Origin: Fibrobacterota bacterium
Lineage (GTDB): Bacteria; Fibrobacterota; Fibrobacteria; UBA11236
Length of the DNA stretch: 64,000 bases
Direction of reading: 5' to 3'
Assembly (NCBI GenBank): GCA_028287465.1
Contig: JAQBPO010000062.1
Span: 1 to 64,000, forward strand
Shown here: piece by piece, positions 12,429-38,395 of the stretch
Numbering within the stretch: position 1 is the first letter of the stretch
Layout: each line of letters begins with the position of its first letter
Made by a program: the position numbers and the translations under genes
Notes under the pieces: model-generated
What the model saw: the letters and a program-made list of their open reading frames with translations, nothing else
Told to the model about the DNA's origin: nothing
The model's database searches: none

Positions 12429-12598
12429 ACCCGCGCAAGACGCAAGTACCAAGCCAATCGGCCAATGGCAGGGTTTGTCAGCCTTTTCCGCGAATCTGGC
12501 AGGCGGCCGGGAGGAATTCCCCGAGGGGCGTGCGCATTAGCTGACACTTCGCGGATTTGTAGCCAATGGGAAAGTCGATGGGGAAACCGAAGGGGAAT

Positions 12599-14260: not shown

Positions 14261-14327
14261 TGGTGAAATGGAATTCATCACTTTCGGTTCCGGGTCGGTG
14301 GACAAACCCGAGCCTCAGCCGTAGTTT
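14261..14327 (+). promoter_or_regulatory. Chitin-regulon promoter cassette, copy A
   Basis: Palindrome TGGTGAA (14261-14267), six-base spacer, TTCATCA (14274-14280), then 18 bp to TGGACA (-35, 14299-14304), then 17 bp to TAGTTT (-10, 14322-14327). Spacing is identical in five copies across the window. Predicted transcription start is near 14334, leaving a leader of ~147 nt before the ATG at 14481. Confidence 0.8.
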
Positions 14328-14333
14328 TGATTT

Positions 14334-14480
14334 TGCGGATTGCACCCACGCTTAACGCGGCAATCCGGTTTCACGGGCTGTGGGGCCCGACGGTCTGAAT
14401 CCCAGATACGTCCGGCTGAGAGAACGGTTCCTGAACCGTAAGTCTCCCCTATTGCCTTGGATGACGGGAACGGAGGAAAA
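14334..14480 (+). promoter_or_regulatory. Structured 5' leader with three hairpins
   Basis: Between the predicted start of transcription and the ribosome binding site GGAGG (14472-14476) there are three clean inverted repeats: CGGATTGC/GCAATCCG (14336-14367), CGGGC/GCCCG (14374-14389) and ACGGTT/AACCGT (14424-14439). No known riboswitch consensus was recognised. It may be an untranslated regulatory leader or simply a long UTR. Confidence 0.3.
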
Positions 14481-17400: not shown

Positions 17401-18389
17401 GGGCGGAAATCACCCTGGCCCCCGGGAATGCGGCCCGCGCCGTGGTCGTCTTCACGGAACCCTTTCCCCAGGGCGTCACCTCCCTCAAGAACGCCGCCGC
17501 TTCCGGCCAGACCTTCCACCAGGATGCCATCCCCCTGAACGACGGCGTCTTCGCCGTAGCAGACTCGGTCGCCCCCGTCATCGTCTCCGCCGAGGTCAAG
17601 GAACCGGGCGACGGCGCGGCGCTCAAGCGCGTGCTCATCACCTACTCCGAAGCGGTCGCGATCTCCGCCGGAGGGCAGCCCTTGACCTTCAAGCGCGAAA
17701 GCGCGGAGACTCCCGGTTCCTCCGTGATCCTGGCGAACGTCGAGAAGCTCTCCGAACGGGACTACGCCTTCCATGTCGACTCCAACTCGACCTTCTACCC
17801 CATCGTCGGCGACTCCGCCGCCATCACCGTCAATGGCCAGACGGCGGACGCGGGGGGAATGACCCCGAAGGCGAAGTTCTTCCGCGTGCTGAAGGGCGTG
17901 CCCCCCAAGGCCAAGCCCGTGAGCCTGAAGGTCACCTTCCCCAACGGCAGCCAATTGGATGCCTCCTCCGGTTCCGCGGCCGCCAATCGACCCGGCCTGG
18001 CCTTCATCCCGGTCGACAAGGATGGCAACGCCCTGGCGAAATGCCCCGGTTGCGTGGCCAAGGACAGCCGCGGTTACGTAGGACCGGTCTTCGTCATCTC
18101 CACGCCCGGCCCGGTCGATTACACCTTCAAGATCTTCAACAACTTCGGCGAATTCGTGATCGAAGGCAAGGGCAAGGTGGAATCGGGGGATCTGTCCCAA
18201 TTGAAACGCTCGGGCGGAATCAATTACGAGGCCCCGGTGGTTTGGACCGGCGCCACCCGTTCGGGCACGAAAGCCTCGACGGGGGCCTATATCCTGATAG
18301 CGACCTTCCTTTCCGAAAAGGACATGACCTCCGGCGCGGGTCCGGGCCAGTTCACGGAAAAGAAGGTCTTCGGCATGCTCCGCAACTGA
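14481..18389 (+). CDS. Large secreted protein: lysozyme-like N-terminal module, two CHB_HEX_C repeats, shared C-terminal module
   Basis: 1302 residues. Start ATG 14481 has a strong GGAGG site; the hydrophobic export segment (MAMALTLALALLAGSASAQ) begins only at ~residue 73, so either the n-region is unusually long or translation starts at 14697. Residues ~95-630 form a Cys-containing module with a pattern reminiscent of the lysozyme/lytic-transglycosylase fold: AIAGKETGAG with Glu307, YWQIEQDTYGTY, and AAMIGGYNLG. Residues ~746-830 and ~837-918 are chitobiase C-terminal (CHB_HEX_C_1) Ig-like repeats (SGASILYTLDGSDPDS; PGATIYYTLDGTIPDS). Residues ~920-1302 are a module shared with the proteins at 18425 and 23729, starting with YLDENGDGRIE and ending in an FlgD-Ig-like GTGAYI. 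Probably acts on or binds chitin or peptidoglycan outside the cell; activity is inferred only. First gene under promoter copy A. Confidence 0.75.
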   Translation: MAALNGRSGTKDGDKAVFSRIPAVDGAQGSASSGMAAGERNRTDAFDLCRTCEDAPSSHVADSHAESRAGGAMAMALTLALALLAGSASAQVKLTLGGDLPATGPGTKYPTLMTCNETNLPQQVDGWKFKTKDFAGFTTWMPNLTKSGTAPVEYTQKVPTEERQMQAGNCRIAPTDYTGTLAAGQDATPFDLQALIKTGSCTEVPPYKDADGLTCAEIDAVKPDYGSQCIIDSIGSNGGDNYGGFVSSFYGQTQIQAAIPSNSFQVSGDEVRWNPYAMGPQYMMALGMAQEIMNVDMQFLTAIAGKETGAGIQSVATGAVRSELPDYQDNGTYSYWQIEQDTYGTYIKAYPQFFPKYGPCVSKYPDVTSAISAGHCVDSWGTVAKFYMQPAGKTKMTPNSPQITNGALSSAIAWYGLYDALSNSTDLCFVEAIKNGVDKRIAFAAMIGGYNLGRYTDFGGPLKDPNLKNDPNASAKFATGNNNYRPDIYRILDNLVGASKNCASRKIYDTTITLNEMQRFLFGGSVTAGTVAAQGDGGLMLHFPLTTEERQALWDDVTCAYNKLKGKAPSTIGKDAISYRYDYLTLLRVVKKHLPFHIKDRKIPVEHDFQYVVDTYSKNPQTCSGKKKDDVYPSMSITSPAANSVVSPVIAPGAKFVFSGTDNVAVSKAEWTFDKNWLAWNPATKTAGNTYEFSISCERPDYPKKNSAASLWVRTTDDCGNSTVQQFDFRTHSTANCGDPPVPPQVATPLATPPGREFSALTPGVRVTLDDATSGASILYTLDGSDPDSVVGGKTVQYSGPILITATTVLKARGVMDGMSASSIMTETYTKVQPGKVATPTATPPGKTFTGSLSVILQTATPGATIYYTLDGTIPDSSGAGAKKLTAPIVLTADATITAIAVKDGMYRSDVMVEKYSNIPPVAVKQAWYLDENGDGRIEKAIVEFASALPAVPAKLGFKITDESNQDIARNASGAEITLAPGNAARAVVVFTEPFPQGVTSLKNAAASGQTFHQDAIPLNDGVFAVADSVAPVIVSAEVKEPGDGAALKRVLITYSEAVAISAGGQPLTFKRESAETPGSSVILANVEKLSERDYAFHVDSNSTFYPIVGDSAAITVNGQTADAGGMTPKAKFFRVLKGVPPKAKPVSLKVTFPNGSQLDASSGSAAANRPGLAFIPVDKDGNALAKCPGCVAKDSRGYVGPVFVISTPGPVDYTFKIFNNFGEFVIEGKGKVESGDLSQLKRSGGINYEAPVVWTGATRSGTKASTGAYILIATFLSEKDMTSGAGPGQFTEKKVFGMLRN

Positions 18390-23624: not shown

Positions 23625-23691
23625 TGGTGAAAAACGTTTCATCACTTCTTTCCCCGGGTCCATAGCCAAAGCCCCCCCTTGGCCATAGTTT
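23625..23691 (+). promoter_or_regulatory. Chitin-regulon promoter cassette, copy B
   Basis: TGGTGAA (23625-23631), six-base spacer, TTCATCA (23638-23644), 18 bp, TAGCCA at the -35 position (23663-23668; the most divergent -35 of the five), 17 bp, TAGTTT (-10, 23686-23691). Predicted start near 23698 gives a ~31-nt leader before ATG 23729, which has GGAG at 23721. Confidence 0.75.
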
Positions 23692-23728: not shown

Positions 23729-26700
23729 ATGAACGACAAAGCCTGGCTTGTACTGATTCCCGCGATCCTCTCGGCCGCCTGGGGTGACGTGGAGATGAAG
23801 GCCAACATGTGCACGGATACCAAGGCCGACGTCGCCCTGACCTATACCAACAAGAATGATCAGCCCTGGGACATGCAAGGCTTCGTCTTCAGCCTGGGCG
23901 CGACGAGCACCGAAGGCAAGTTCGGCAAGGACGGCAAGGTCCAGAACCTGATCCTTCCCGGCATGAGCCCGCGCGACGATGGGTACCACGGATGCGGCAC
24001 CTTCCGCGGCCCCGTATCCCATCTCCAGTTGGAAGCAAAGACCGGGTATTGCAACGAAATCGATCCTCCCGAAGTCTCCAAGCCGATGCAGTGCGCGGAA
24101 ATCAATACCGCGGCGCCCTTCTACGATGCCGCGGTCTGCGTCAAGGACAGCCTCGGCATCCTGCGCGGGGACGGGTATGGCGGCGCCTTGGACAGCTACA
24201 AGGGCCAGACCCAGATCCAGGTCCGGCTCCCGGCCGCCACCTGGACCCTGAACGGCAAGACCGTGAAATTCGATCCCCAGGCCTCCATGGGCGGACCGTT
24301 CTACATGATGTCCATGGCCGCCTTGCAGGAATACATGTACGTCGACATGCAATTCATGCTCGCCCTGGGCGCGTCCAAATCCGGCGCCGGCCTGGTGGAT
24401 GCGGCGACCGGGACCTCCCTGTACAAGCCACCTCTGAATGCGGGCACCGGCGACGATTCCCAATACGGTTCCTTCGGCCTCAACCTGCTCACCTACCGGA
24501 AAATCGCCTACGACTATCCCAAGTACATCCCCCCGGAAGGGACCTTGGCCAATACCGTCTCCAACGGCTCCGGCCCCACCCCCGCCAATTCGCCGCAACA
24601 AATCAATTCCGGCATGCTCGGGGCCATGAACCTATGGTGGTACCTGGACGCGGCGCAGACGGGCCAGGACCTCTGCTTCAAGCAGTTCATGCGGGACGCC
24701 CAGGACAAGACCGCCGGCCTGAAAGTGCTGATTTCCGGCTACGAGAACGGCTACGGCCCCGGTGGCACCGGGTCCACCAATGATTTCGCCACCCAGGTCC
24801 TCCCTGCCAAGACCAATCCCGCCGCCTTGGCAGCCAAGGATATTACGCCTTACATGAAGCCTTACCTCTGGGACGTGGGCGGCCCCACCCACGGCAAGCA
24901 GGACTATATCACCAACGTCTTCACCGGCCTCGATGTCCTGGTCCAGAGCGGATCGAATTGCTCCGGCGAGAAGGTCTACGATGCGCCCATCACCAAGCAG
25001 AACCTGATGGACCTCTATTTCGGCACGGGCGGCTCGGTCGCCAAGCAAGGCACCGGGGGCCTCCTATGGCATTTCAACATCGGGCCCGCGCAGCGCCAGA
25101 GCCTGTTCGATGCTTTGGAGTGCGCCTATAAGGGCCTGGAAGGCAAAGCCCCGTCCACCCAGGGCCAGGCGGCCATCAGCTTCCGTTATGATTTCCTGAC
25201 CGTACTGCGGGTGGCCAAGACCCACTTCACCCAGTACCTGACCAAGTTCAGCGACAAGCCCACCCCCGCTGATCCCTTCAGCTCGGACTTCAGCATCTGG
25301 GTCGTCAACCATTCCAAGGTCCCCTGCGAGAACGCCAAGCCGGACAATAGCTGGCCCGTCCTGAAGCTGGCCGGAGAGAGCCTGAATAAGGGCGAAAAGG
25401 TCGAAGGCCCCGGAACGATCGACGACCGCGGCATCAAGTCGCGCGAATTCACCACGGACGACAAGTGGCTCCTGTGGAGCGCGGCCGCTCCGGATTTCTC
25501 GGTCCCCCCCACCCTGGCGACGAGCCAACGCCTATGGTACCGGGTCACGGACTCCTGCGGCAACGCCACCATCGAGGAAGTGAAATGGAGCGACGGCCCG
25601 CCCCTGGACAAGGTCGTGGCCACCCCACCCGGCGGTCCCTTCTTCGGTTCGGTCAAGGTCACCTTGGACGTGCCTTCCGTGACCGGCGAGATCATCTACT
25701 ACACGATCGACGGCAGCACGCCCACCTCGGGCTCCCTGAAGTACGACCCGGCCGCCGGCATAACCATTTCGACCGATATCATCCTCAAGGCCATCGCCAC
25801 CAAGGCCGGATCCTCCCCGAGCCCGGTCGAGTCCTGGACCTTCACCAAACAGCTCGTGCCCGTGACCAAGCCTCCCACGGCGGATCCCCCCGGCAAGTCG
25901 TTCACCACCCTCGATCCGGATTTCACGGTCACCTTGAATCCCGGTGAAGCCGGCTCGGCCATCTTCTTTACGACGGACAATTCCGTTCCCGACACCCTGG
26001 AACGCGGGACGACCAAGAAGTACGTCGGACCCATCACGGTAAGCACGACCGTGACCATCAAGGCCGTCGCCACCAAGGCGGGACAATTGGGCAGCGCCGT
26101 CATGGTCGAAACCTACACCGAGACCCAGGCCCCCAAGGTCGCCACCCCCGTGGCCACGCCCCCCGGCGCCGCCGGGACCTCGCCCTTCACCTTCATCTCC
26201 GGTCCGCTCTCCGTTTCCCTGAGCGATGCCACCGCCGGCGCGGCCATCCAGTACCGCCTGGACGACGGCGCCCCGGTCGCGTTTTCGGGCGCCCTCTCCA
26301 TCGCCAAGACCACCACGCTGAAGGCCTTCGCCACCAAGGCCGGTTCCGTGACCAGCGATACCCTGGTCGTCCAATTCGTATTCACGCCTCCGGTCTCCGT
26401 ATCCAAGTCCTATTACCAGGACCTGAACGGCGACGGCAGGATCGAAACCGTCATCCTCGAATTCGAGAAGGACCTGCCGACCGCGCCTGAGAAGCTGGGC
26501 TTCAAGATTTCCGACGAGAGCGGCCAGACCAATGATCGCGCGGCAGGCAAGGCCGAGATCGCTTTCGCTTCCGGATCCAAGTCCCGCGTGGTCGTGACCC
26601 TGGCCGACCCGTTCCCCTACGGCATCACTTCGGTGACCAACCGGGACGCCTCCGGCCAGATCTTCAAGCAGGACGATATCCCCCTGCTCGACAATGCCTT

Positions 26701-27577
26701 CCGGGTGGACGATTCCGTGCCTCCGGTGGTCTCCAAGGCCACGGTGCAGGAGCCCGACAGCCTTAATCCCGAGAAGCGCATCATGCTCACCGTCTCGGAA
26801 GCCACCAATATGCCGCTCACGAGCCAGACCGTACTGGTCTTCAAGCATGAAGGCGTGGAGGCGGCGACCTCGGATATCCGCATCAGCCGCATGGAGAAGA
26901 CGGGAGATCGGGATTTCGTGGTCTATATCGACGGCGCTTCGCCCATCTTCCCCATCGTGGGCGACTCGATAGCCTTGGTCCCGGGCGGGGAGGTGAAGGA
27001 CATCGCCCTGAACGCCCCTTCCAGGAAGACCTTCAAACGCATGGACGGCATCGTGCCCAAGCCCAAGCCCACGGACATCTACGTGACCTTCCCCAACTCC
27101 ACCAAGGACAAGGCCTCGGACGGCCCTTCTCCCCAGGGCGACGTGGTGTTCATCCCCGTGGACAAGGGGGGCAATGCCTTGAGCGGCAGCGCCGCCGACG
27201 GAAAATGCCCGGGCACGTGCTTCACGGGCGACCGAGGCGTGTTCGTGGGCCCGGTTTTCCACATCGAAACCGCGGGGCCCGTGGCCTACGAGTTCCAGAT
27301 CTTCAACAACGTGGGCGAGTTCCTCGCGCGAGGCAAGGGCCGCTTCGACGAGAACGACCTGAAACTGATGGAACGGTCCAACGGCGCCTCCGGCGTCAAA
27401 TACGTGGCCCGCGTGATTTGGACCGGCCAGACGACCAAGGGCGGGAAGGCCGGCACCGGCGCCTATATCCTCCAGAGCGTGCTGAACACGGACAAGGACA
27501 CGAGGACCGGGGCGCCGCCGGCCTCCACCAAGAAACGCGTCGTCTTCGGGATGCTCCGCAGCTTCAAAGGATCCTGA
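23729..27577 (+). CDS. Large secreted paralogue of the 14481 protein with three CHB_HEX_C repeats
   Basis: 1282 residues. Signal peptide ending near AAWGDV (~20). Residues ~20-560 are homologous to the N-terminal module of the 14481 protein (shared GQTQIQ, VDMQF, KAPSTxGxxAIS, RYDxLTxLRVxKxH, and Cys positions). The Glu of its AIAGKETGAG motif is Lys here (LGASKSGAG), so if that Glu is catalytic this copy is inactive. Three CHB_HEX_C-like repeats follow at ~630-710, ~712-795 and ~800-888. The shared C-terminal module (YYQDLNGDGRIE ... GTGAYILQSVL) fills ~890-1282. Likely extracellular chitin binding. First gene under promoter copy B; its stop overlaps the next start as TGATG. Confidence 0.75.
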   Translation: MNDKAWLVLIPAILSAAWGDVEMKANMCTDTKADVALTYTNKNDQPWDMQGFVFSLGATSTEGKFGKDGKVQNLILPGMSPRDDGYHGCGTFRGPVSHLQLEAKTGYCNEIDPPEVSKPMQCAEINTAAPFYDAAVCVKDSLGILRGDGYGGALDSYKGQTQIQVRLPAATWTLNGKTVKFDPQASMGGPFYMMSMAALQEYMYVDMQFMLALGASKSGAGLVDAATGTSLYKPPLNAGTGDDSQYGSFGLNLLTYRKIAYDYPKYIPPEGTLANTVSNGSGPTPANSPQQINSGMLGAMNLWWYLDAAQTGQDLCFKQFMRDAQDKTAGLKVLISGYENGYGPGGTGSTNDFATQVLPAKTNPAALAAKDITPYMKPYLWDVGGPTHGKQDYITNVFTGLDVLVQSGSNCSGEKVYDAPITKQNLMDLYFGTGGSVAKQGTGGLLWHFNIGPAQRQSLFDALECAYKGLEGKAPSTQGQAAISFRYDFLTVLRVAKTHFTQYLTKFSDKPTPADPFSSDFSIWVVNHSKVPCENAKPDNSWPVLKLAGESLNKGEKVEGPGTIDDRGIKSREFTTDDKWLLWSAAAPDFSVPPTLATSQRLWYRVTDSCGNATIEEVKWSDGPPLDKVVATPPGGPFFGSVKVTLDVPSVTGEIIYYTIDGSTPTSGSLKYDPAAGITISTDIILKAIATKAGSSPSPVESWTFTKQLVPVTKPPTADPPGKSFTTLDPDFTVTLNPGEAGSAIFFTTDNSVPDTLERGTTKKYVGPITVSTTVTIKAVATKAGQLGSAVMVETYTETQAPKVATPVATPPGAAGTSPFTFISGPLSVSLSDATAGAAIQYRLDDGAPVAFSGALSIAKTTTLKAFATKAGSVTSDTLVVQFVFTPPVSVSKSYYQDLNGDGRIETVILEFEKDLPTAPEKLGFKISDESGQTNDRAAGKAEIAFASGSKSRVVVTLADPFPYGITSVTNRDASGQIFKQDDIPLLDNAFRVDDSVPPVVSKATVQEPDSLNPEKRIMLTVSEATNMPLTSQTVLVFKHEGVEAATSDIRISRMEKTGDRDFVVYIDGASPIFPIVGDSIALVPGGEVKDIALNAPSRKTFKRMDGIVPKPKPTDIYVTFPNSTKDKASDGPSPQGDVVFIPVDKGGNALSGSAADGKCPGTCFTGDRGVFVGPVFHIETAGPVAYEFQIFNNVGEFLARGKGRFDENDLKLMERSNGASGVKYVARVIWTGQTTKGGKAGTGAYILQSVLNTDKDTRTGAPPASTKKRVVFGMLRSFKGS

Positions 27578-30138
27578 TGCACGATACCGCGCCCGAAACC
27601 CGATCGAAGGTCGAACGCTGGTTTCTCGCCAAGGCGCCCCTTCCCTTCCTGGGAAGGCATGAGGAACGCATACCCGTGGTCATGGTGGACGATTACGTCC
27701 AGCTCGGCCAGCTGACCGCCCTGCGCTTCCTGGAATGGCTCCAGGACAACCCCGAGGGCCTGGCCGCCCTGCCCACCGGAAAGACGCCGGAATATTTCAT
27801 CAAGTGGGCGCGTTACTACCTCGCCAATTGGGAGGAGGAGGCCAGGAGCGGACTGCTCAAGCAGATCGGCCTGGACGACAAGGCCAAGCCTTCCTGCGCC
27901 AAGGCGCACTTCGTGCAGCTGGACGAGTTCTTCCCCATCGATCCTTCCCATGAGCGCTCCTTCCGCCATTACGTGAAGAAGTACTACCTGGAAGGATTCG
28001 GTTTCGACGAGAGCCGGGCCCTCCTGCTGGATTGCTACAACCTGGATGCGCCGGGACCCGGAGCGCGCCGCAACCCTGCCTTGTCCCGCATCACCAACCT
28101 GGAAGCCTTGTTCCAGGGGGACCGCTTCACCTACCTCGATTTACGGGAGCGCCAGCCCGCCACCCCGCTGGAGGCACTCCAGAAGGAGGCCATCGGCCAT
28201 TTCGATCGCGTTTGCGAGGAGTACGAGCGCCGCATCCGCTCCCTGGGCGGTATCGGGTTCTTCCTTGGCGGCGTGGGACCGGACGGCCATATCGCCTTCA
28301 ACGTCCGGGGCAGCAGCCATCATTCCTCCACGCGCCTGACCCTCATGAATTACGAGACCATGGCCGCGGCGGCGGGCGACCTGGGCGGGATCGAATCCGT
28401 GCGCAAGAAGGCCGTCATCACCATCGGGCTGGAAACCATCACCTGGAATCCCGAAGCCGTGGCCATCATCATGGCGGCCGGCGAGGCCAAGGCGAAGGTG
28501 GTGGCCCAGGCCATCGAGGAGCCCGCGGACATCGCGACCCCGGCCAGCTGCCTGCAGTCCCTGCCCAACGCGCGCTTCTTCGTCACCAAGGGCGCGGCCT
28601 CCCGCCTTAAGGCCCGGCGTTTCCGGCTCCTGGGCGAAGCGGTCTCCCAATCTCCGGCGGGATCCTCCGGACCGGCGGGCGGCGTGATCAGGGCGCGACC
28701 GGCGGAATCGGAAATCCAACGCCTGGTCATCGACGGCGCCATGGCCCTAGGCCTGGATCTCAAGGCCCTGGCCAAGGACGGCCTGGCCGCCATCCCCGGC
28801 TCCATCCTGTCGCAGGAGTCCAACGCATCCAAGGCCCTGAACACCGATACAATCGCCAAGACCCTTGCCACGGGCCGCGCCGCGCTCGCCCTCGCCTCCG
28901 CCCTGTCCAGCCAGGACGTTCCGGGCCTCGCCAAGGCCGCCTCGGACGGGTTGATGGATAAGATCCAGGCGGGCCTGCGCCTTTCAGGCCTGGGGCCCTC
29001 CGCGGGGGAACAGCGCTTCCTCCACACCGGGCCGCATCACGACGATATCGAGCTCGCCTATTTCCCCTTGCTGCACCACCTGGTGCGCTCGGAGCGTAAT
29101 TACAACCACTTCTGCTACCTGACCAGTGGCTTCACCTCGGTCACCAACCATTACGTGCTGGAACGCCTGGGGTCCCTCCGCCGTTACCTGCAGGACGGCA
29201 GCCTGCTGCTGGCCATGTCCGCGGAAGAGCTGAGCCGTGACGATGCGCGTTACAAGGAGATCTACGGCTACCTGAACGCCATCGCGGAAAGGGACCAGGA
29301 CGGGCAGGCCCTCTACACGGCGTGCCGGCTCTACCGCTTCCTGCGCAAGGAACTCGGCACCTCGTCCCAGGAACGGATCCATTCCTCGGTCGAAGAACAG
29401 ATACGCCTGCTGGAGTCCCTGTCCCCGGGAAAGCGCGAGCCGGAAACCATGCAGAAGCTGAAGGGCTGGCTGCGGGAATGGGAGGCCGAACTGGTCTGGG
29501 CCCATTTCGGTTTCGGCCCGGACCATGTGACCCATATGCGCCTGGAGTTCTACACCGGCGCGGTCTTCCCCCAGGATCCGGAATACGAACGGGACGTACT
29601 GCCCATCGTGGCCTTGCTGGAAAAGGTGCGCCCCACCGTGGTGACCCTGGCCCTGGATCCGGAGGGCAGCGGCCCGGATACCCATTTCAAGGTGCTGATG
29701 GCGATCTCGGCGGCTCTTGAAACCTATACCGCCCGCCATGGGGTGGGCGATCTCCGGGTCTGGGGCTATCGCAACGTCTGGGCCCGGTTCCATCCTTCCG
29801 AGGTCAATACCATCATCCCCGTTTCCCTCAATTCCTTCGCCGTCCTGAACAATATGTTCGAGAGCTGCTTCATCAGCCAGCGCTCCGCCTCCTTCCCCAG
29901 CCCCGAGCTGGACGGAACCTTCAGCGAGCTATGCCAGGCCACCTGGGTGGAGCAATTCCGGGATTTGACCACCCTCCTGGGCAAGGAGACCTTTTACGGC
30001 CATGCCCATCCCATGATGCGGCGCGCCTACGGGGCCATCTACCTCAAGGACATGACCTACGCGGAATTCGTGGAGGAGACCCGGCCCCTCAAGGCCCTGT
30101 CCAAAAACAAGGAGCAGGTCCGCTTCCCCCTGGAATGA
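27577..30138 (+). CDS. Glucosamine-6-phosphate deaminase (NagB)-PIG-L deacetylase fusion
   Basis: 853 residues, cytoplasmic. Residues ~1-345 are a NagB/SugarP isomerase domain: PTGKTPEYF, HFVQLDEFFPI and GGVGPDGHIAFN. Residues ~480-850 are a PIG-L/LmbE-type domain with the metal motif HTGPHHDDIEL and a downstream PDTHFKV. NagB converts glucosamine-6-phosphate to fructose-6-phosphate and ammonia; the PIG-L half plausibly removes the acetyl group from GlcNAc-6-phosphate, replacing a separate NagA (inference; such fusions occur in Bacteroidota-type genomes). Where E. coli NagB has Glu after HIAFN (Glu148), Val is present; the effect is unknown. Translationally coupled (TGATG) to the secreted protein upstream, placing amino-sugar catabolism inside the chitin regulon. 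Confidence 0.88.
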   Translation: MHDTAPETRSKVERWFLAKAPLPFLGRHEERIPVVMVDDYVQLGQLTALRFLEWLQDNPEGLAALPTGKTPEYFIKWARYYLANWEEEARSGLLKQIGLDDKAKPSCAKAHFVQLDEFFPIDPSHERSFRHYVKKYYLEGFGFDESRALLLDCYNLDAPGPGARRNPALSRITNLEALFQGDRFTYLDLRERQPATPLEALQKEAIGHFDRVCEEYERRIRSLGGIGFFLGGVGPDGHIAFNVRGSSHHSSTRLTLMNYETMAAAAGDLGGIESVRKKAVITIGLETITWNPEAVAIIMAAGEAKAKVVAQAIEEPADIATPASCLQSLPNARFFVTKGAASRLKARRFRLLGEAVSQSPAGSSGPAGGVIRARPAESEIQRLVIDGAMALGLDLKALAKDGLAAIPGSILSQESNASKALNTDTIAKTLATGRAALALASALSSQDVPGLAKAASDGLMDKIQAGLRLSGLGPSAGEQRFLHTGPHHDDIELAYFPLLHHLVRSERNYNHFCYLTSGFTSVTNHYVLERLGSLRRYLQDGSLLLAMSAEELSRDDARYKEIYGYLNAIAERDQDGQALYTACRLYRFLRKELGTSSQERIHSSVEEQIRLLESLSPGKREPETMQKLKGWLREWEAELVWAHFGFGPDHVTHMRLEFYTGAVFPQDPEYERDVLPIVALLEKVRPTVVTLALDPEGSGPDTHFKVLMAISAALETYTARHGVGDLRVWGYRNVWARFHPSEVNTIIPVSLNSFAVLNNMFESCFISQRSASFPSPELDGTFSELCQATWVEQFRDLTTLLGKETFYGHAHPMMRRAYGAIYLKDMTYAEFVEETRPLKALSKNKEQVRFPLE

Positions 30139-30231: not shown

Positions 30232-30298
30232 TGGTGAAATAGAGTTCATCACTTTCAGCGGACCCCGGGTGGACAAATGCCTCCCCTGGGCATAAGTT
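30232..30298 (+). promoter_or_regulatory. Chitin-regulon promoter cassette, copy C
   Basis: TGGTGAA (30232-30238), six-base spacer, TTCATCA (30245-30251), 18 bp, TGGACA (-35, 30270-30275), 17 bp, TAAGTT (-10, 30293-30298). The predicted transcription start (~30305) coincides with the GTG start codon of the regulator at 30306, so the mRNA is probably leaderless. Confidence 0.8.
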
Positions 30299-30305
30299 AT
30301 AGTCG

Positions 30306-31133
30306 GTGATAAGCGTATTCGACTATCTAGATTATCGGCAGTTCCTCAGGGACTTCTATAACCAGCAGAAAAAGACCAACACGTTCTTTTCCTACCGGTA
30401 TATTGGTAACAAAGTAGGGATGGATTCCAGCTTCCTGATCAAGGTGCTGCAAGGCCATCTCCACGTAGCCGAAGACCGCATTGAGAAATTCCACAAGATA
30501 TGCAACTTCAACGATAAAGAAGCCCAGTACTTCGAGGCCTTGGTCCATTTCAACAAGGCCAAATCCGAAAAGGAGAGCAAGCTCTATTTCGAGAAGATGC
30601 TCTCCATCAACAAGGCCAAGTCCGACAAGATCGTCGAGAGCCAATACGAGTTCTTCCAGAAATGGTATTACTCCGCCGTATGGGCCCTGTTGGACGGAGC
30701 GCCTTTCAAGGGCGACATCAAGGACCTGGGCAATATGCTGACCCCGGCCATCGGACTGAAGGAAGCCAAGGCGGCCATCAAGCTCCTCGAGGATCTGAAA
30801 CTGATCGTCCAGGATGCGGACGGCGCCTACCGTGCGGTGGGCCTCAACCTGACCACGGGCAAGGAATGGCGCTCGGTCGCCATCATGCAGTACCAGCGCG
30901 AGATGATCAAGCTGGCCGAGGAGAGCCTGGAGCGTTTCCGCAAAGAGGAACGCGATATCTCCACCCTGACCGTGAACATCCCCGAATCGGCCATCCCGGA
31001 AATCCGGGACCTGACCGGCGAGTTCCGCGAGTCCCTGAAGAAGCTCGTCAACAGCTATACCGAGACCGATCGCGTCTACCAGATGAACATCCAGATGTTC
31101 CCGCTCACGCAGAAGCGCAAGGCCCACAAATGA
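30306..31133 (+). CDS. TIGR02147/DUF4423 family regulator, candidate activator of the chitin regulon
   Basis: 275 residues, cytoplasmic. The N-terminus SVFDYLDYRQFLRDFY is characteristic of TIGR02147, a family expanded in Fibrobacter. Residues ~28-65 (SYRYIGNKVGMDSSFLIKVLQGH) look like a helix-turn-helix of XRE type. Residues ~115-270 are the DUF4423 region. No signal peptide. The GTG start at 30306 is required to include the conserved N-terminus; no ribosome binding site is visible, and the predicted transcription start sits directly on it, pointing to leaderless translation. It lies under its own copy of the regulon promoter, suggesting autoregulation, and heads a possible seven-gene unit with the lipoprotein and ABC importer. 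Role as activator is inferred from position; the family function is experimentally poorly known. Confidence 0.8.
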   Translation: MISVFDYLDYRQFLRDFYNQQKKTNTFFSYRYIGNKVGMDSSFLIKVLQGHLHVAEDRIEKFHKICNFNDKEAQYFEALVHFNKAKSEKESKLYFEKMLSINKAKSDKIVESQYEFFQKWYYSAVWALLDGAPFKGDIKDLGNMLTPAIGLKEAKAAIKLLEDLKLIVQDADGAYRAVGLNLTTGKEWRSVAIMQYQREMIKLAEESLERFRKEERDISTLTVNIPESAIPEIRDLTGEFRESLKKLVNSYTETDRVYQMNIQMFPLTQKRKAHK

Positions 31134-32446
31134 AGGCCCGGCTCCTCCTCGCATCCCTGTCCGCGGCCTTCCTGGCGGCTTTCAACGGTTGCGGGCCGGA
31201 ACCGTTGGCCGGCGGCACCATCGAGACCACCAACGGCATCGCCGCCCGCGTGGTTCTGCCGAGCGGCCGTCCCGCGACCAATATCAAGGTGTTCCTCCTG
31301 GACGAGCAGGATTGGCTGAAGAAGACCAAGGCCGGTGAGAGCATCGTGATGGACAGCGCCGAAACGGATACCGACGGGAAATTCAGGTTCAAGGACGTGG
31401 ACACGAACCGGACCGTGAGCCTTTACGCGGACGTGGAGACCTACGGCATGCTCATCCATTCCTGCACCCAGAAGCTGGTCGACGTGGCCTACAAGGGCAC
31501 CATCGGGATGAGCAAGAAGGTGAGCTACCAGGGTACCATCAAGGATACCACCTACAAGACCGAGAAGATCCTCCTGGCGGGTTCGCCCTTCGCTTCCGAA
31601 GTCGACAGCACCGGCAGGTTCATCATCAAGGATGTGCCTCAGGAATACTATTCCGTGGTCATTTTGCGCAAACTCCCCAATGAGACCCATGAATACGTGG
31701 TGGGCGAAAATATCAGGCTGGACGAGTGGACGGAAGGCAAGCCCACCATCATCACGCCGGATACGACCAAGGCCATCCTCATCGAGGACTTCGAAGATCT
31801 GGACAACCGGAACCTGCTGGGACCCGTTTTCGGCGGCGGATGGTGGGACGCGATAAACGATTATCCGGCCGATAACGCCACCTTGCTGCAACCCGTGAAC
31901 GCCGCGCCGCAGAACTTCGCGCGGGCCATCACGAACGGCGGTTCCGAAGAGAGGGCCCGCAGCCTGCACGTCCTCTACCAGGCCGCGAGGTCCGCGCCGA
32001 CGGCGGAACCGTTCGTACTGTTGACGTCGAACCTGGGCGCCTATAACGTGCACTACAACCTGGGCGGCATGGATTCGCTGACCTTCTTCTCGGGAGGCTC
32101 CGGCCGGTTGACCGTCGAATTGGTCCAGACGAATCCCGCCGGCAGCGAGGTCGCCCTGGAAGTCATCGCGTCCAAGTCCTTCGACCTCGATTCGAACGGC
32201 TGGACGAAATACTCCATCAAGCCAGGGGATCTGGGTGTCACGGTCGGCTGGTTCCCGAACGACCCGGCCAGCTTCAAGGCCGCCTTCGAAAAGGCCAGGC
32301 TCCCCGCTTATACCAAGAAGCCCGGGACCTGGGAGGAAATGGGGGGCATGGTCACCCAAATCCGGTTCAAAGGCGCGGGCGGCGCGGAATTCTGGCTCGA
32401 TCATATCCGCATCCACGGCATCACCGCGGGCGACCTGGTCAAGTAG
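31130..32446 (+). CDS. Lipoprotein with Ig-like repeats and C-terminal carbohydrate-binding-like domain
   Basis: 438 residues. A lipoprotein signal (LLLASLSAAFLAAFNGC, Cys22) is followed by carboxypeptidase-regulatory-like segments at ~35-100 and ~120-200 (GIAARVVLPSGRPATNIKVFLL; DTDGKFRFKDVD). Residues ~228-430 (ILIEDFEDLDNRN ... FWLDHIRIHGI) resemble a CBM11/CIA30-type jelly-roll. Expected to be anchored in the outer or inner membrane facing outwards or into the periplasm. ATG 31130 overlaps the regulator stop as ATGA, so both are coupled. Its position directly after the regulator suggests a ligand-binding or sensing role for chitin fragments, but this is inference. Confidence 0.78.
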   Translation: MKARLLLASLSAAFLAAFNGCGPEPLAGGTIETTNGIAARVVLPSGRPATNIKVFLLDEQDWLKKTKAGESIVMDSAETDTDGKFRFKDVDTNRTVSLYADVETYGMLIHSCTQKLVDVAYKGTIGMSKKVSYQGTIKDTTYKTEKILLAGSPFASEVDSTGRFIIKDVPQEYYSVVILRKLPNETHEYVVGENIRLDEWTEGKPTIITPDTTKAILIEDFEDLDNRNLLGPVFGGGWWDAINDYPADNATLLQPVNAAPQNFARAITNGGSEERARSLHVLYQAARSAPTAEPFVLLTSNLGAYNVHYNLGGMDSLTFFSGGSGRLTVELVQTNPAGSEVALEVIASKSFDLDSNGWTKYSIKPGDLGVTVGWFPNDPASFKAAFEKARLPAYTKKPGTWEEMGGMVTQIRFKGAGGAEFWLDHIRIHGITAGDLVK

Positions 32447-32533
32447 CCGGACCAAGGGAAATCACCGCAATCAGCGGAATCGCCGCGCGTGGCCCCAGGC
32501 GCGCAAGGCGGCCCGCATGCAACGGAGACAATC

Positions 32534-34618
32534 GTGCGCTTGACGAAATGGGTCGTGGGTCCGCTGGCCCTTTTGTCCCTCGGAATCTACGGCCTTTACA
32601 ATTGCGTCCTCTGCGGGGATCCCGCGGCGAAGGCCGCCGCGGCCGCGGTCGCCAACGGCGGCAGGCCGGAAATCGTCGTCCGCATCCCTTCCTTCCCCAC
32701 CCAGAGCCTGGAGCCCTACGTATGGGCGCCGCAGGCGGTGATCACCCAGGGGACCCTGTTGGAAGGCCTGTTCGGCTACGACCGGGACCTGAACGTGGTA
32801 CCGAAGGTCGCGGAGAGTTGGGTCCTGGCCCCGGACAAGCTGACCTGGACCATCAAGCTCCGCAAGGACAAGAAGTGGTCGGACGGGACCGGCGTCACGG
32901 CCCATGATTTCATCTACGGATGGACGCGCTTCTGCAGCCCGGGCTTCCCCTCGCCGGACTGGGCTTCCGTTTTCGTATCCGTAGAGCATGCCATGGACTA
33001 CAAGTCCGGCAGCATCCCCCTGGACTCCGTCGGCTTCAAGGCCCTGGACGATTATACCCTGGTGGTCAAGCTCATCAAGCCGCGCTCGCTTCCCTCCTTC
33101 CTCGCCCTGTCCTCCACCCTGCCCATGCACAAGGCCAGCTTCGAGGCGGCCAAGGCGCGCGGCGAGGCGGATTTCTGGTGGATGCCCGGCAGCTTCGTCG
33201 GCAACGGCCCCTACATCCCCGTGCGTTTCGTGCGGGACGGGGAGATTGAACTGGTGCGGAACCCCCATTACGTCGGCGAACGCGGCAACGTGGACCGCTT
33301 CGTGCTCAAGTCCATGAGCATGTCCTCCCAGAGCGTGCAGATCCAGCAATACGAGGCGGGCGAACTGGACGTCGCCCATGTCATGACCCTGGGGGACTAC
33401 GCCTACGCCTCCAAGGCCAAGCATATCAAGGACCAGGTGGTGATGACCCCGGAGATGGGCTATACCGGGATCCAGATGGCCCGCACGGTGAACAAGCTGA
33501 TGAATGACGACAACCTGCGCCGGGCCATCGCCCTGGCCATAGACAAGGCGGACCTGGCCAAGAACGTCATGGGCGGCCGGGTGAACCCCACCAATGTATT
33601 CGGTCCGGAACAGGACAGCCTTTTCGCCGGCCTCACCGGCGTCTCCTTCGATCGGGAAGAAGCCAAGCGGTGCCTGGCCAAGTCATCCTACCGCGGGGAA
33701 CCCATCTACCTCTTCAGCCCGCCGTCGACGGACGTCAAGGGCCTGGCCTCGGTATCGGAAGCCATCCAGTCGCACCTCAAGGCCATCGGCCTGAACGTGG
33801 TCATCGAGAACCTGGAGGAGGGCGTGCTCAACTCCTACGTCTGGGGCGGAGGCTACATCGACGATCCGCGCTACAACCGTCCCGGCCTCACCCTGTTCCC
33901 CGGCAAGGTCCTGTGGAAGGAGCCGGTGATGATGCTGCGCGCCGCCGACCATAGCTGGGACTGGATGAATTACGACTACGAGGTCAAGGAGCTCCGCAAG
34001 CGCATCACCCTGGAGCGCGTGGCCCTCAAGAAAGAGGAGAAGGGGGACAAGCCCCGGGACTGGGCCGAACTCAAGGTGCTGCGCGATTCCTGCGCGGCCT
34101 GGTTCGCGCGCATCAAATCCATGGAGACCGACTCGCTGTTCCGCAACAAGATCCTGGAGAAGAACGCCGCCCCGCAATACGATCGCCTGCTCTCCTCCAT
34201 CGGCCCCAAGACCGCCCGGGACGAGAAGATCGCCAAGTGGCAAAGCGCCAAGGACGTGCTGTTGGACGCCGAGTTCGAGTTCCTGACCTATTTCGGCAAC
34301 CAGCGCAACCATGACGGCAAGGTGACCTTCGCCCATCTGGAGACGGCCACCATGGAGGATTCCGCGACCACGCCCCTGCTGCGCCACATGATCCAGCTCT
34401 CCCTGGATCAGAATTGGATCATCCCGTTCTTCTCCGAAAAGCTCGTCTACGTGAAACGCCCCTGGCTCACGGGGGAATCCATGAACAAGTTCGGGATGTG
34501 GAACGTGCTTTTCGATCTGCAATACATCAACGTGGACGAGAAGGCTTACATGGCCGCCGTCCATCCGGAAAGCAAATCCTGGCTGACGCGCCTCGCCTCC
34601 CACCAGGAAGGGAACTGA
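32534..34618 (+). CDS. ABC transporter substrate-binding protein, peptide/chitooligosaccharide type (SBP_bac_5)
   Basis: 694 residues. The N-terminal hydrophobic segment (WVVGPLALLSLGIYGLYNC) exports or anchors it. The family 5 fold is recognised from SLEPYVWAPQAVITQGTLLEGLFGYD (shown in part), ESWVLAPDKLTWTIKLRKDKKWSDG, AHDFIYGWTR and DNLRRAIALAIDKADL. It is ~150 residues longer than typical DppA/OppA because of a charged helical insert at ~490-590. Family 5 proteins bind peptides, but the Vibrio chitobiose-binding protein belongs to the same family; with the surrounding chitin genes, chitooligosaccharide is the likely ligand (inference). Start GTG 32534 has GGAGA at 32524. No terminator separates it from the lipoprotein gene (87-nt gap). 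Confidence 0.85.
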   Translation: MRLTKWVVGPLALLSLGIYGLYNCVLCGDPAAKAAAAAVANGGRPEIVVRIPSFPTQSLEPYVWAPQAVITQGTLLEGLFGYDRDLNVVPKVAESWVLAPDKLTWTIKLRKDKKWSDGTGVTAHDFIYGWTRFCSPGFPSPDWASVFVSVEHAMDYKSGSIPLDSVGFKALDDYTLVVKLIKPRSLPSFLALSSTLPMHKASFEAAKARGEADFWWMPGSFVGNGPYIPVRFVRDGEIELVRNPHYVGERGNVDRFVLKSMSMSSQSVQIQQYEAGELDVAHVMTLGDYAYASKAKHIKDQVVMTPEMGYTGIQMARTVNKLMNDDNLRRAIALAIDKADLAKNVMGGRVNPTNVFGPEQDSLFAGLTGVSFDREEAKRCLAKSSYRGEPIYLFSPPSTDVKGLASVSEAIQSHLKAIGLNVVIENLEEGVLNSYVWGGGYIDDPRYNRPGLTLFPGKVLWKEPVMMLRAADHSWDWMNYDYEVKELRKRITLERVALKKEEKGDKPRDWAELKVLRDSCAAWFARIKSMETDSLFRNKILEKNAAPQYDRLLSSIGPKTARDEKIAKWQSAKDVLLDAEFEFLTYFGNQRNHDGKVTFAHLETATMEDSATTPLLRHMIQLSLDQNWIIPFFSEKLVYVKRPWLTGESMNKFGMWNVLFDLQYINVDEKAYMAAVHPESKSWLTRLASHQEGN

Positions 34619-34619
34619 C

Positions 34620-35582
34620 ATGCACGCCCTGGTCTTCTTCTCCAAGCGCCTGAGCGCAATCGTCGTCTCCCTGGCGGCGGTCGTGACCATCACCTTCTAC
34701 CTGATGCATTCCGCGCCGGGAAACTTCCTCGAGATGCAACAGGTGCGCGAGGCCATGGCCAGCCTGGACAGCAAGGGTCGCGAAGCGCAGAAGCAATACG
34801 AGATCGAGTTCCAGAAACGCTACGCCCTGGACAAGCCCATCTACGTGCAGATCGGCATCTACCTCAAGAACGCCGCCACCTTCAAATTCGGCCCGTCCTT
34901 CACCAATCCCAACGTGCCCATCGAGGCCCTGGTCCGCGAGAAGTTCGGGACCACCCTGCAGATCGTCCTCATCGGCCTGATCCTGGCGATCGTGGCCGGG
35001 GTGCCCTTGGGCGTCATCGCCGCCCTGCGCAAGAATACGGTTTGGGATTACGGCCTGATGGGCTTTTCCATGATAGGCCAAGTGATCCCGTCCTTCGTCA
35101 TCGCCGTGGGCCTCATCGTCATCTTCTCCGTGATGCTGGGCTGGCTGCCCACCTCCGGTTGGGGGCAATGCCGGCATTACATCCTGCCCGCCCTGGCCAT
35201 CGGCGCGGCGCCCATCGCCACCGTGGCCCGCTATATCCGCTCCAGCATCTTGGAGACCATGGAGCAGGATTACATCCGCACCGCCTTCTCGAAGGGCATC
35301 CCCGAGGCCCGCGTCATCCTGGCCCATGCCCTGCGCAACTCCCTCATCCCCCTCATCACCGTGATGGGCCCCCAGTTCAGCTTCATGCTCCTGGGCAGCG
35401 TGCTGGTGGAACAGGTGTTCCGCATCCCGGGAATGGGATCCATGTTCGTTTCCGCCGCCCAACAACGCGATTATCCGATGCTGGTCACCTCGACCCTGAT
35501 TTTCGCCGCGGCCATCATGCTGGTAAACCTGGTCGTGGACGTGCTATACGCCTTCCTCGACCCCCGGATAAAGCTGGAGTGA
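34620..35582 (+). CDS. ABC transporter permease, DppB/OppB type
   Basis: 320 residues, inner membrane, six predicted helices. The first helix (IVVSLAAVVTITFYLMHSAPGNF) and the long periplasmic loop are typical of DppB-type permeases. The EAA-type cytoplasmic loop reads EQDYIRTAFSKGIPEARVILAHALRN. ATG 34620 is one base after the upstream stop codon. Second gene of the importer, order SBP-B-C-D-F. Specificity follows the binding protein; see the note on chitooligosaccharides there. Confidence 0.92.
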   Translation: MHALVFFSKRLSAIVVSLAAVVTITFYLMHSAPGNFLEMQQVREAMASLDSKGREAQKQYEIEFQKRYALDKPIYVQIGIYLKNAATFKFGPSFTNPNVPIEALVREKFGTTLQIVLIGLILAIVAGVPLGVIAALRKNTVWDYGLMGFSMIGQVIPSFVIAVGLIVIFSVMLGWLPTSGWGQCRHYILPALAIGAAPIATVARYIRSSILETMEQDYIRTAFSKGIPEARVILAHALRNSLIPLITVMGPQFSFMLLGSVLVEQVFRIPGMGSMFVSAAQQRDYPMLVTSTLIFAAAIMLVNLVVDVLYAFLDPRIKLE

Positions 35583-35584
35583 CC

Positions 35585-36538
35585 ATGTCCCCATCCACGA
35601 CCACGCCCGGCCAGGGCCCCGGCGCCCCTGGAGCCGACCTCGCTTCCGGCTTCCCGGCCGCGGGTTCCGATCCTTCGGACGAAATGTCCGTGCCCCAATA
35701 CGGCGGCATGGCCGGCCTGCGCCGCGATTGGCGCCGCTTCCGCCGCAACAAGCTGGCGGTGGCCGGCCTGGCCTATATCCTGTTCCTGTTCTTCATCGCC
35801 TTCACGGCGGACTGGGTGGCCCCGTACCATTACGAGACCACCAATCCTCCCGCGGCCCTGGAGTCCTCGAGCGTCCAGCACTGGTTCGGGACGGACGAAT
35901 TGGGACGGGACATGCTTTCCCGCGTCATGTACAGCGCCCGCAACGCCATCGTCGTCTCCTTCGGATCGGTGCTGATCGGCTTGGCCGTGGGCGCGTTCAT
36001 CGGCGCGGTATCCGGATTCTACGGAGGCATCCTGGACATCGCGGTGATGCGGGTGGTGGACATCATGTTCGCCTTCCCGCAATTCCTCCTGCTCATCATC
36101 CTGGTGACGGCCATGGGCCGCGGCCTGGGGACCATGTTCGTGGCCATCGGCATCACCAGCTGGGCCGGCTACGCGCGCCTGGTGCGCGGCCAGATCCTGA
36201 GCGCCAAGAACAACGATTACGTGGAAGCGGCCCGCTGCCTGGGTTCCGGCAACGGGCACATCATCCGCAAGTACATCCTGCCCAATATCGTGGGACCCAT
36301 CATCGTGGCCGTGAGCTTCGGCGTGCCCGCGGGCATGTTGGCCGAATCCGCCATGAGCCTCATCGGCATGGGCCTGCGCCCGCCCATGCCCAGCTGGGGC
36401 AACCTCATCAGCGCCGGCATGATGCAGATGTACGGCTTCCCGCATCTGGTCCTCTGGCCCTCCCTCACCTTCGGGCTCACCTTGCTGGCCTTCACCTTCG
36501 TCGGCGACGGCCTCCGGGAGATTTATGGCAAGGAATAG
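35585..36538 (+). CDS. ABC transporter permease, DppC/OppC type
   Basis: 317 residues, inner membrane. A ~45-residue Pro/Gly/Ser-rich N-terminal extension precedes the usual start of the fold (RRFRRNKLAVAGLAYILFLF). The EAA loop is YVEAARCLGSGNGHIIRKYILPN. The typical DppC stretch HWFGTDELGRDMLSRVMYSA is present. ATG 35585 lies two bases after the DppB stop. Partner of the DppB-type permease. Confidence 0.92.
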   Translation: MSPSTTTPGQGPGAPGADLASGFPAAGSDPSDEMSVPQYGGMAGLRRDWRRFRRNKLAVAGLAYILFLFFIAFTADWVAPYHYETTNPPAALESSSVQHWFGTDELGRDMLSRVMYSARNAIVVSFGSVLIGLAVGAFIGAVSGFYGGILDIAVMRVVDIMFAFPQFLLLIILVTAMGRGLGTMFVAIGITSWAGYARLVRGQILSAKNNDYVEAARCLGSGNGHIIRKYILPNIVGPIIVAVSFGVPAGMLAESAMSLIGMGLRPPMPSWGNLISAGMMQMYGFPHLVLWPSLTFGLTLLAFTFVGDGLREIYGKE

Positions 36539-37529
36539 CGACGCCTCCGCCCCCGTATTGGACGTCCAGGGCCTTCACGTGGCCTTCCGCGGGGAGGCCG
36601 GCCTTTTGAAAGCCGTGGACGGATTGGATCTGCGCGTGGAACCGGGCGAGGTGCTCGGCATCGTGGGCGAATCCGGATCCGGCAAGTCCGTGAGCATGCT
36701 CAGCATCACCGACCTGATCAAGAAGGAGAACCGGGACACCTCCGGCACGGCATCCTTCCTGGGCCGCGACCTCGTCGCGCGGGATCTTCTGAAGATGGGC
36801 AAGGAAGAGCTCGGCAGGATCCGCGGCAAGGATATCGGCTTCGTCTTCCAGAACCCCATGAGCTCCCTGAACCCGACCATGCGCATCGGCGCGCAGATCG
36901 CGGAAGGCATGCTGCACCACGGGGAAGCCACCCGCGCGGACGTCAAGGAAAAGGTCGTGGCCTTGCTGGACAAGGTCGGCATCCGGGAACCGGAGAAGCG
37001 TTACATCGCCTATCCCCACGAGCTTTCCGGCGGCATGCGCCAGCGCGTCATGATCGCCATGGCTTTGTCCTGCAATCCCAAGCTGTTGATCGCGGACGAG
37101 CCCACCACGGCCCTGGACGTGACCGTGGAGAAGCAGATCCTCGAGTTGATGATGAAGATGAAGGACGAGCTGGGGCTCAGCATCATCATGATCACCCATA
37201 ACCTTCCCGTCGCCCTCAACTATTGCGACGGCATCCTGGTCATGTACGCGGGCAAGGTGATGGAGACCGGCACCGCCCTGGACCTGGTGTCCCATCCCGG
37301 CCATCCCTATACCAAGGCTTTGTTCTCCTCCAATCTCGAGCTCGGCAGGCGAGGCACCCGCGTGGAGCCCATCAAGGGCAATATCCCGGCCCTGACCCAT
37401 CTTCCCTCGGGCTGCAGGTTCCATCCGCGCTGCCCGATGGCGACGGACAAATGCCGGAACGAAGTACCGCCCGCCATGCAGTCGGCCGGCCTCTCCGATC
37501 ATCTCACCTTTTGCCACTACCCGCTTTGA
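36525..37529 (+). CDS. ABC transporter ATP-binding protein, DppD/OppD type
   Basis: 334 residues, cytoplasmic face. Walker A GESGSGKS, Q-loop FVFQNPMSSLNP, signature LSGGMRQR, Walker B LLIADEPTT and H-loop ITHN are all present. The C-terminus has the oligopeptide-transporter Cys motif GCRFHPRCPMATDKC. ATG 36525 overlaps the end of the permease gene by 14 nt. Pairs with the next ATPase to power import. Confidence 0.93.
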   Translation: MARNSDASAPVLDVQGLHVAFRGEAGLLKAVDGLDLRVEPGEVLGIVGESGSGKSVSMLSITDLIKKENRDTSGTASFLGRDLVARDLLKMGKEELGRIRGKDIGFVFQNPMSSLNPTMRIGAQIAEGMLHHGEATRADVKEKVVALLDKVGIREPEKRYIAYPHELSGGMRQRVMIAMALSCNPKLLIADEPTTALDVTVEKQILELMMKMKDELGLSIIMITHNLPVALNYCDGILVMYAGKVMETGTALDLVSHPGHPYTKALFSSNLELGRRGTRVEPIKGNIPALTHLPSGCRFHPRCPMATDKCRNEVPPAMQSAGLSDHLTFCHYPL

Positions 37530-37540
37530 TAGGTGACACC

Positions 37541-38395
37541 ATGAGCGATTTCATCCTTGAAGCGACCGACATCCGCAAGACCTTCGGGAAGGGCGACCGG
37601 GCCGTGAAGGCCGTGGACGGCATCTCCGTGAGGATCCGCCGCGGCAAGACCCTGGGCATCCTGGGGGAATCCGGTTCCGGCAAATCCACCCTGGGACGCT
37701 GCATCCTGCGCCTCATCGAGCCGGACGGCGGAACCATCAAGTTCGACGGCAAGACCGTGTCGGGCATCCCCCAATCGCAATTCCGGCCCAACCGCCGCAA
37801 TATGCAGATGATCTTCCAGAATCCCTTCTCCTCCCTGAACCCGAAGATGAGCATCGGGGAGGCGATCGAGGATCCCATGCGCATCTGGAAGATCGGCGAC
37901 AAGGAATCGCGCCGCAAGCGCGTGACGGAACTGCTCGACATGGTGGGCATCAATCCCCGCCGCTCCGCGGCCTATCCCTACGAGTTCTCGGGCGGCCAGC
38001 AACAGCGCATCAATATCGCCCGGGCCCTGTCCCTGGATCCCAAGTTCATCGTCTGCGACGAGGCCGTTTCGGCCCTGGACGTTTCCATCCAGACCCAGAT
38101 CGTGAACCTGCTGATGGACCTGCAGAAGCACCTGGGCCTGACCTACCTCTTCATCTCCCACAACCTGGGCGTGGTGGAGTACCTGGCGGATGACGTGCTC
38201 ATCATGCAGCATGGCAAATTGGTCGAGTACGCGCCCACGGAGGAGATCTTCAAGAATCCGCGCAGCGAGTACACCCGCAACCTGATCGCCTCCGTGCCGG
38301 CCATGCCCACGGCGGCCCATTTGCAGGCCAAGGAAGCCGATCGGATCGCGCGCGGCAAGGGCCTCGCCTCAGCCCGCAGCGCCGTCGCCGGATAG
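37541..38395 (+). CDS. ABC transporter ATP-binding protein, DppF/OppF type
   Basis: 284 residues. Walker A GESGSGKST, signature FSGGQQQRI, Walker B FIVCDEAVSALD and H-loop FISHN are present. It is shorter than most DppF proteins because the C-terminal Cys-rich oligo_HPY segment is missing; it ends in an Ala/Arg-rich tail. ATG 37541 has AGGTGA at 37531. Last gene of the importer; a terminator follows at 38432. Confidence 0.92.
   Translation: MSDFILEATDIRKTFGKGDRAVKAVDGISVRIRRGKTLGILGESGSGKSTLGRCILRLIEPDGGTIKFDGKTVSGIPQSQFRPNRRNMQMIFQNPFSSLNPKMSIGEAIEDPMRIWKIGDKESRRKRVTELLDMVGINPRRSAAYPYEFSGGQQQRINIARALSLDPKFIVCDEAVSALDVSIQTQIVNLLMDLQKHLGLTYLFISHNLGVVEYLADDVLIMQHGKLVEYAPTEEIFKNPRSEYTRNLIASVPAMPTAAHLQAKEADRIARGKGLASARSAVAG

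Follow-up and report, generated by a model that had tools for sequence, protein, structure and literature searches.

The window, which is the whole stretch of 64,000 nucleotides of Fibrobacterota DNA that was analysed, harbours at 30306-31133 on the plus strand an open reading frame with a GTG start and 275 codons, which profile matches assign to the TIGR02147 / DUF4423 regulators. The protein scores 274 bits against NCBIfam TIGR02147, for which the curated cut-off is 50. Its residues 1-269 align to positions 1-271 of the 272-position profile, so that it is a full-length member of the family; PF14394 (DUF4423) of Pfam covers its C-terminal half. In the 5.8 Mb genome 53 matches to TIGR02147 were found, of which this regulator is the sole one on its own 189-kb contig, and this raises the question why this paralogue would own the palindrome described below. 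The first-pass annotation had named it the lone DNA-binding-type regulator of the window, in agreement with our Pfam scan of 33 protein reads, which found no other HTH family.

In the AlphaFold2 model of the regulator (mean pLDDT 88.1), a helical HTH-like domain at the N-terminus is followed by a winged helix of the ArsR/MarR-like type, which spans residues 104-190 approximately (VIA Z up to 9.7). Residues 7-89 were matched to 2eby with a VIA Z of 8.4 over 75 residues (rmsd 2.6). Profile matches in the PDB to C.BclI and HigA were weak (E 0.15-0.94), and a Foldseek search with the whole model found no structure with E ≤ 0.001. Based on alignment numbering, the helices of the model and covariation with the operator, the recognition-helix stretch was placed at residues 38-50 of the N-terminal HTH (GMDSSFLIKVLQG; 30417-30455, plus strand).

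The 20-base palindrome TGRTGAA-N6-TTCAYCA occurs at five perfect sites in the genome, all of them within 45.5 kb around the regulator and on the plus strand. Copy 1 (14261-14280) lies before the gene of a CHB_HEX_C/Fn3_assoc protein (14457-18389) and has a -10-like element at +51, copy 2 (23625-23644) precedes a second CHB_HEX_C/Fn3_assoc gene (23729-27577), copy 3 (30232-30251) lies before the regulator gene and is kept before orthologues of 51-96% identity, copy 4 (48772-48791) precedes an open reading frame at 48920-49963, and copy 5 (59773-59792) lies before two GH18 genes (59850-61139 and 61195-62469). When up to three mismatches were allowed, nine sites were found in the window compared to 4.0 expected, the perfect ones being these five. 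In the whole genome, a search with at most one mismatch found seven sites, namely the five perfect ones and two with one mismatch on contigs C17 and C82, while the reversed pattern gave no site at the same threshold.

Fifteen copies of the cassette from three genomes of the genus could be aligned without gaps, giving TGGTGAA-N6-TTCATCACTT, then TGGACAAA, then CATAGgTT. The motif thus extends beyond the palindrome and includes a CACTT directly after it. In front of the regulator, the -35-like element is TGGACA (30270-30275, plus strand), whose offset and sequence are the same in most of the 15 cassettes; at the copy starting at 23625 this element is degenerate (TAGCCAAA). The -10-like element is TAAGTT (30293-30298, plus strand) and begins 51 bp away from the centre of the operator. 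The first-pass annotation had given the regulator gene its own copy of the cassette, and the perfect palindrome is indeed present upstream, its first base being position 30232, where the reported span starts. It had also put the palindrome centre at about -63.5 from the predicted start; taking TAAGTT as the -10 element, we found about -63. With the same assignment, transcription would start approximately at the GTG itself, and the regulator message is probably leaderless. TAAGTT ends 7 bp ahead of the GTG, a distance that is 8 bp longer in genome G003. Copy 3 predicts autoregulation of the regulator.

Behind the second CHB_HEX_C/Fn3_assoc gene follows a NagB/PIG-L-like open reading frame (27205-30138), with a match below the NCBI cut-off. 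Downstream of the regulator, a lipoprotein gene (31130-32446, plus strand) is followed by the family 5 solute-binding protein of an importer (32489-34618, plus strand; PF00496) and by two permease and two ATPase open reading frames of an oligopeptide-type ABC importer (34620-38395, plus strand; PF00528, PF00005 and PF08352). The regulator had been proposed to head a unit with the importer; this unit holds, with the lipoprotein gene sitting between the two. The open reading frame behind copy 4 has a weak match to a C-terminal sorting domain, and a GH20 gene (57734) and another GH18 gene (44102) lie near cassette-led genes. From this gene content, with GH18, GH20, a NagB-like enzyme, CHB_HEX_C proteins and an importer, the predicted regulon looks chitin- or GlcNAc-related. 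Three similar large CHB_HEX_C/Fn3_assoc proteins are encoded in a row (14457-18389, about 18.4-22.0 kb and 23729-27577), one of them with a fibro-slime/PA14 match. Elsewhere in the window, genes for a transglutaminase-like protein, a circularly permuted ATP-grasp/Alpha-E protein and a DUF2126 amidoligase adjoin on the minus strand (5612-12452).

A search of the ten family genomes found the full, CACTT-containing motif in three, which are the same three that carry an orthologue of at least 90% identity; in the others, the best matches to the regulator have 48% identity or less. By itself this co-occurrence could be linkage, because cassette and regulator lie in one cluster. More distant relatives of 51-59% identity, from other families of the phylum (Fibrobacteres, Chitinispirillaceae and Chitinivibrionales MAGs where titled), keep an operator centred 64-77 bp before the start with 0-2 mismatches (two for L222, one for L235), and the upstream DNA around it has otherwise diverged. 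The first-pass annotation had suggested checking whether the cassette always comes with a close orthologue. Among these ten genomes this is the case for the full motif, but it does not hold across the phylum for the bare palindrome, which is also present in genomes without one. At least one perfect palindrome was found in 34 of 150 genomes of the phylum, with 30 sites in the 134 genomes that lack a relative at E ≤ 1e-78 and 24 in the 16 genomes with one, and we rejected the palindrome alone as too weak a phyletic marker. Only the full motif, or the position of the palindrome before the regulator, is informative. For instance, G034, whose best relative is 47% identical, has three perfect bare palindromes (C1:71908, C1:297247 and C9:44234), and so does G053 of the same genus (on C43, C128 and C175), where no relative was found at E 1e-60 or better. 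These sites may belong to a different TIGR02147 protein or to another regulator, or may be due to chance.

The operator also varies with the recognition helix. All ten proteins of helix class S (MD[S/N]S..I) have the S operator upstream, seven of which were not used in defining it, the operator having been defined on the other three. The same operator was found upstream of none of 31 other D40 proteins and none of 135 others (0/166 non-S among 176 genes counted); these and the following counts are to be read with helix classes and most operator patterns having been chosen after inspection of the data. Class A has its own operator in seven of eight genes, one gene lacking it, and in none of 168 elsewhere. 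Class G is looser, with the operator in 14 of 21 genes and matches in 6 of 135 unrelated genes as well. L225, which shares 53% identity with the regulator and has the helix MDPGYLV, carries another palindrome, CGTTGATATAAACATCAACG. L229 (51% identity, helix MDASYLA) has GTGGACATAAATGTCCAC, the class-A operator, and near-copies of it were found for L236, L237 and L232 (48-50% identity). A tree of 41 D40 proteins places L221, whose helix reads MDSG, inside the S clade, with a support of 0.89 (0.83 when the HTH is omitted). The palindrome of L221, TGTTGTATATAATATCAACA, carries at position 3 the T that is typical of class G. The helix, nesting and palindrome of L221 together suggest that residue 42 and half-site position 3 vary together, Ser going with R and Gly with T, in at least one case independently of phylogeny. 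That the recognition helix decides the operator is thus indicated by covariation, under a class rule that is post hoc. A general rule of helix similarity over all groups was rejected: values rose from about 1% to 4/7 at 11/13 identity, with small top bins (7, 1 and 1) coming mostly from two groups. Beside the S clade, L233 (G107) represents a further variant, with the helix MDPSHIVKI and the perfect palindrome TGTGGAAGGCATTTTCCACA before its gene. In the distant class-S relatives, mostly the copy in the own promoter alone matches perfectly, and the five-promoter regulon may therefore be special to this lineage.

TIGR02147 matches are present in 140 of 150 Fibrobacterota genomes, with 290 in six genomes of the genus and up to 85 copies per genome there. 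For 161 distinct genes with upstream DNA, a sample among the matches listed with a few from other families, grouping at 60% identity gave 77 groups, 37 of them with two or more members. A conserved dyad scoring at least 26 was found in 16 of these 37 orthogroups compared to 2 of 37 in a mirror-symmetry control, while the other 21 had no conserved dyad reaching this score. The arms are often kept within a group where spacer and flanks differ, and the half-sites vary by group (CGTTTAC, CGTWTACC, TGTTTCCA, CGTTGA, TTGGACAT, CGTTCAC, GTTGTCC, GGTTCTC, TGTTTACC, GTGATCG and others). Perfect dyads with 7-bp arms were counted upstream of 53 of 160 genes, compared to 24 of 160 with mirror repeats, one of the 161 genes having been dropped as its upstream sequence was missing. 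Because such inverted-repeat counts, although supportive, are mixed with terminators, we used conservation, local copies and the -10 geometry instead. Extra local operator copies with at most one mismatch exceeded the expectation, taken from the loci of other paralogues and for patterns picked by eye, in group 1 (3 versus 0.0), group 11 (3 versus 0.1), group 15 (7 versus 0.0) and the regulator's group 12 (6 versus 0.38). No extra copies near the own paralogue were found for groups 3, 10, 13, 17, 18, 23, 34 and 14. The group 15 paralogues L024 and L159 have a clear local regulon: their two orthologous loci each contain three additional copies of GGTTCTC-N6-GAGAACC, and the -10-like elements of these copies lie at +49 or +60. 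Overall, many sister TIGR02147 proteins appear to have a palindrome of their own each and to follow the same working plan.

For 9 of 17 operator groups, a TAnnTT-type element starting at +47 to +54 from the operator centre is present in half or more of the genes; with shifted positions, the mean was 0.74 groups and the maximum 4 in 2000. In other groups a -10-like element lies near 60-62 or 41.5; for groups 17 and 18, the TAnnTT-type pattern revealed no fixed -10 element. We take the -10 sequence, TAnnTT(T/G), to resemble the Bacteroidota type. Orthologous promoters can differ by about one helical turn, as in group 1 (61.5 versus 69.5-71.5) and group 11 (49.5-50.5 versus 60.5). All 25 extra copies, which were found regardless of promoters and include orthologous copies, so that not all are independent, have, to one side, a -10-like element at 47-54, 57-63 or 67-73; the share is 3.6% for random positions and 5.5% for GC-matched ones. 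The same operator patterns in foreign loci had such an element in 7 of 26 cases, a control that leaves out the regulator's own group, whose cluster spills over several loci. By the E. coli convention the -10 hexamer is placed at -12 to -7, which centres the main class near -62 and the regulator's site near -63. The sites are upstream of -35, on one helical face, and near -62 or whole turns further up, with the transcription start deduced from the -10-like element. This geometry is of the class-I activator type and fits activation better than repression. The same preference, already expressed in the first-pass annotation, is strengthened by a -10 spacing that is repeated in approximately helical-turn steps in many paralogue groups.

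Taken together, the data suggest, with a probability of about 0.85, that the TIGR02147 protein is a cluster-specific activator that acts through the palindrome before five promoters. A dimer of the regulator would bind TGRTGAA-N6-TTCAYCA via the recognition helix (residues 38-50) of the putative Cro/C1-type HTH at its N-terminus. Centred at about -62, the dimer would touch RNA polymerase from the same side of the helix, as class-I activators do, and this contact would raise five otherwise weak promoters, including that of the regulator itself. The regulon would serve the use of chitin and GlcNAc through secreted CHB_HEX_C proteins, GH18, GH20, the NagB-like enzyme, the lipoprotein and the importer, with chitin as the presumed signal. 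Much of the TIGR02147 family appears to work on the same plan, each paralogue group with a private palindrome and nearby promoters.

Binding of the regulator to the palindrome is the part that we hold to be very likely. A different protein could occupy the palindrome and the TIGR02147 gene could be a mere member of the regulon, since linkage alone would look the same and genomes lacking a close orthologue can still contain bare palindromes. We consider this highly improbable, as the operator tracks the recognition helix of TIGR02147 across families, including in proteins of equal overall identity, and as private palindromes also precede the genes of many other paralogues. Even less credible is the view that the palindrome is incidental, the cassette being either a promoter for a special sigma factor that recurs in several copies or a repeat that has spread. 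The conserved -35-like and -10-like parts of the cassette would suit such an origin, but distant relatives keep the palindrome while the -35 region differs, and the arms are kept where spacer and flanks are scrambled.

That the bound regulator activates is likely as well, though somewhat less so than the binding. Cro/C1-type HTH proteins act as repressors, as do many cluster-specific sugar regulators, and autoregulation is usual for repressors. The regulator could thus be an autorepressor of a local regulon that is relieved by a chitin product. However, in 15 of 15 cassettes the site is upstream of -35, about 50, 60 or 70 bp from the -10 element and not across it, and the shifts of approximately whole turns between orthologous promoters fit a contact with polymerase. 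Repression from the palindrome is therefore rather unlikely, and activation by the TIGR02147 protein is preferred.

The lipoprotein gene that overlaps the regulator gene by ATGA encodes a protein with the lipobox cysteine at position 21, followed by GGTIETTNG, and a CarboxypepD_reg-like match below cut-off. Its model (mean pLDDT 61.1) was too poor for a structure search. Such a partner is common: among 154 TIGR02147 genes examined, two of which had no gene within 150 bp, the next gene starts at most 30 bp from the stop in 146 of 152 cases, and 131 overlap, mostly by ATGA. The adjacent product is typically a lipoprotein, and a GGGxTETxNG-like motif usually lies 2 to 11 residues after the cysteine (161 proteins). 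Under a strict lipobox rule, the motif was found in 37 of 72 adjacent lipoproteins, compared to none of 139 putative ones that are not adjacent. The cysteine is the sole invariant column in the alignment of the partners. Of these 161 partners, 63 were scanned for domains, revealing CarboxypepD_reg in 42, LamG in 34 and DUF2341 in 32, and single ones with Kelch, Reg_prop propeller or LRR matches. That the partner lipoprotein is a sensor is a guess. A wider proposal, which we put forward tentatively and think doubtful as a whole, is that TIGR02147 and the overlapping lipoprotein form a sensory module throughout the Fibrobacterota, in up to 85 versions per genome. In such a module, a soluble activator would be translationally coupled to a lipoprotein sensor at the outer membrane or surface. 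All versions would share the GGxxETxNG-like stretch behind the lipid anchor, for signalling or sorting. Two parts would vary between them: the lectin-, kelch- or propeller-like outer part, which would read the glycan, and the HTH helix together with the operator, which would set the output.

TIGR02147 had been described in the first-pass annotation as having no well-established function, and in line with this our literature search, done at record level, retrieved no paper naming TIGR02147 and nothing on its function. For DUF4423, one paper with the name was found, where it is an entry in a proteome table (PMC12546842). A sensing system with a TIGR02147-coupled lipoprotein was not described in the records searched. 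It is new here that nearly all of the TIGR02147 genes examined adjoin a lipoprotein gene with a GGxxETxNG-like motif, and this coupling hints at a sensing system. The Fibrobacterota are a phylum of polysaccharide degraders in which TIGR02147 is widespread. A role, operators and a partial helix-to-operator relation for this family would make regulons readable from sequence across the phylum and allow tests at the level of single residues.

The regulator is a clear member of NCBIfam TIGR02147 (Fsuc_second) / PF14394 DUF4423. TIGR02147 was named as a paralogous family without function, and for it a binding site, a regulon and a helix-operator relation are proposed here. Residues of about 7-90 show a weak profile and fold likeness to Cro/C1-type HTH proteins such as C.BclI and the HigA antitoxins; unlike these, the regulator continues behind the HTH with a winged-helix-like DUF4423 part. 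In class-I activators, for example E. coli CRP, there is likewise a palindrome near -62 with displacements of approximately whole turns, whereas the fold of the regulator is unrelated to that of CRP and its site has been derived from sequence. As in the HTCS and SusR-like regulators of Bacteroidota, there are many paralogues per genome, each beside a degradation cluster, and one TIGR02147 partner lipoprotein has a Reg_prop propeller domain. The TIGR02147 regulator showed neither a kinase nor a membrane-spanning part. In contrast to the HTCS and SusR-like systems, the regulator is soluble according to its model, and the candidate sensor is encoded by a separate, overlapping lipoprotein gene.
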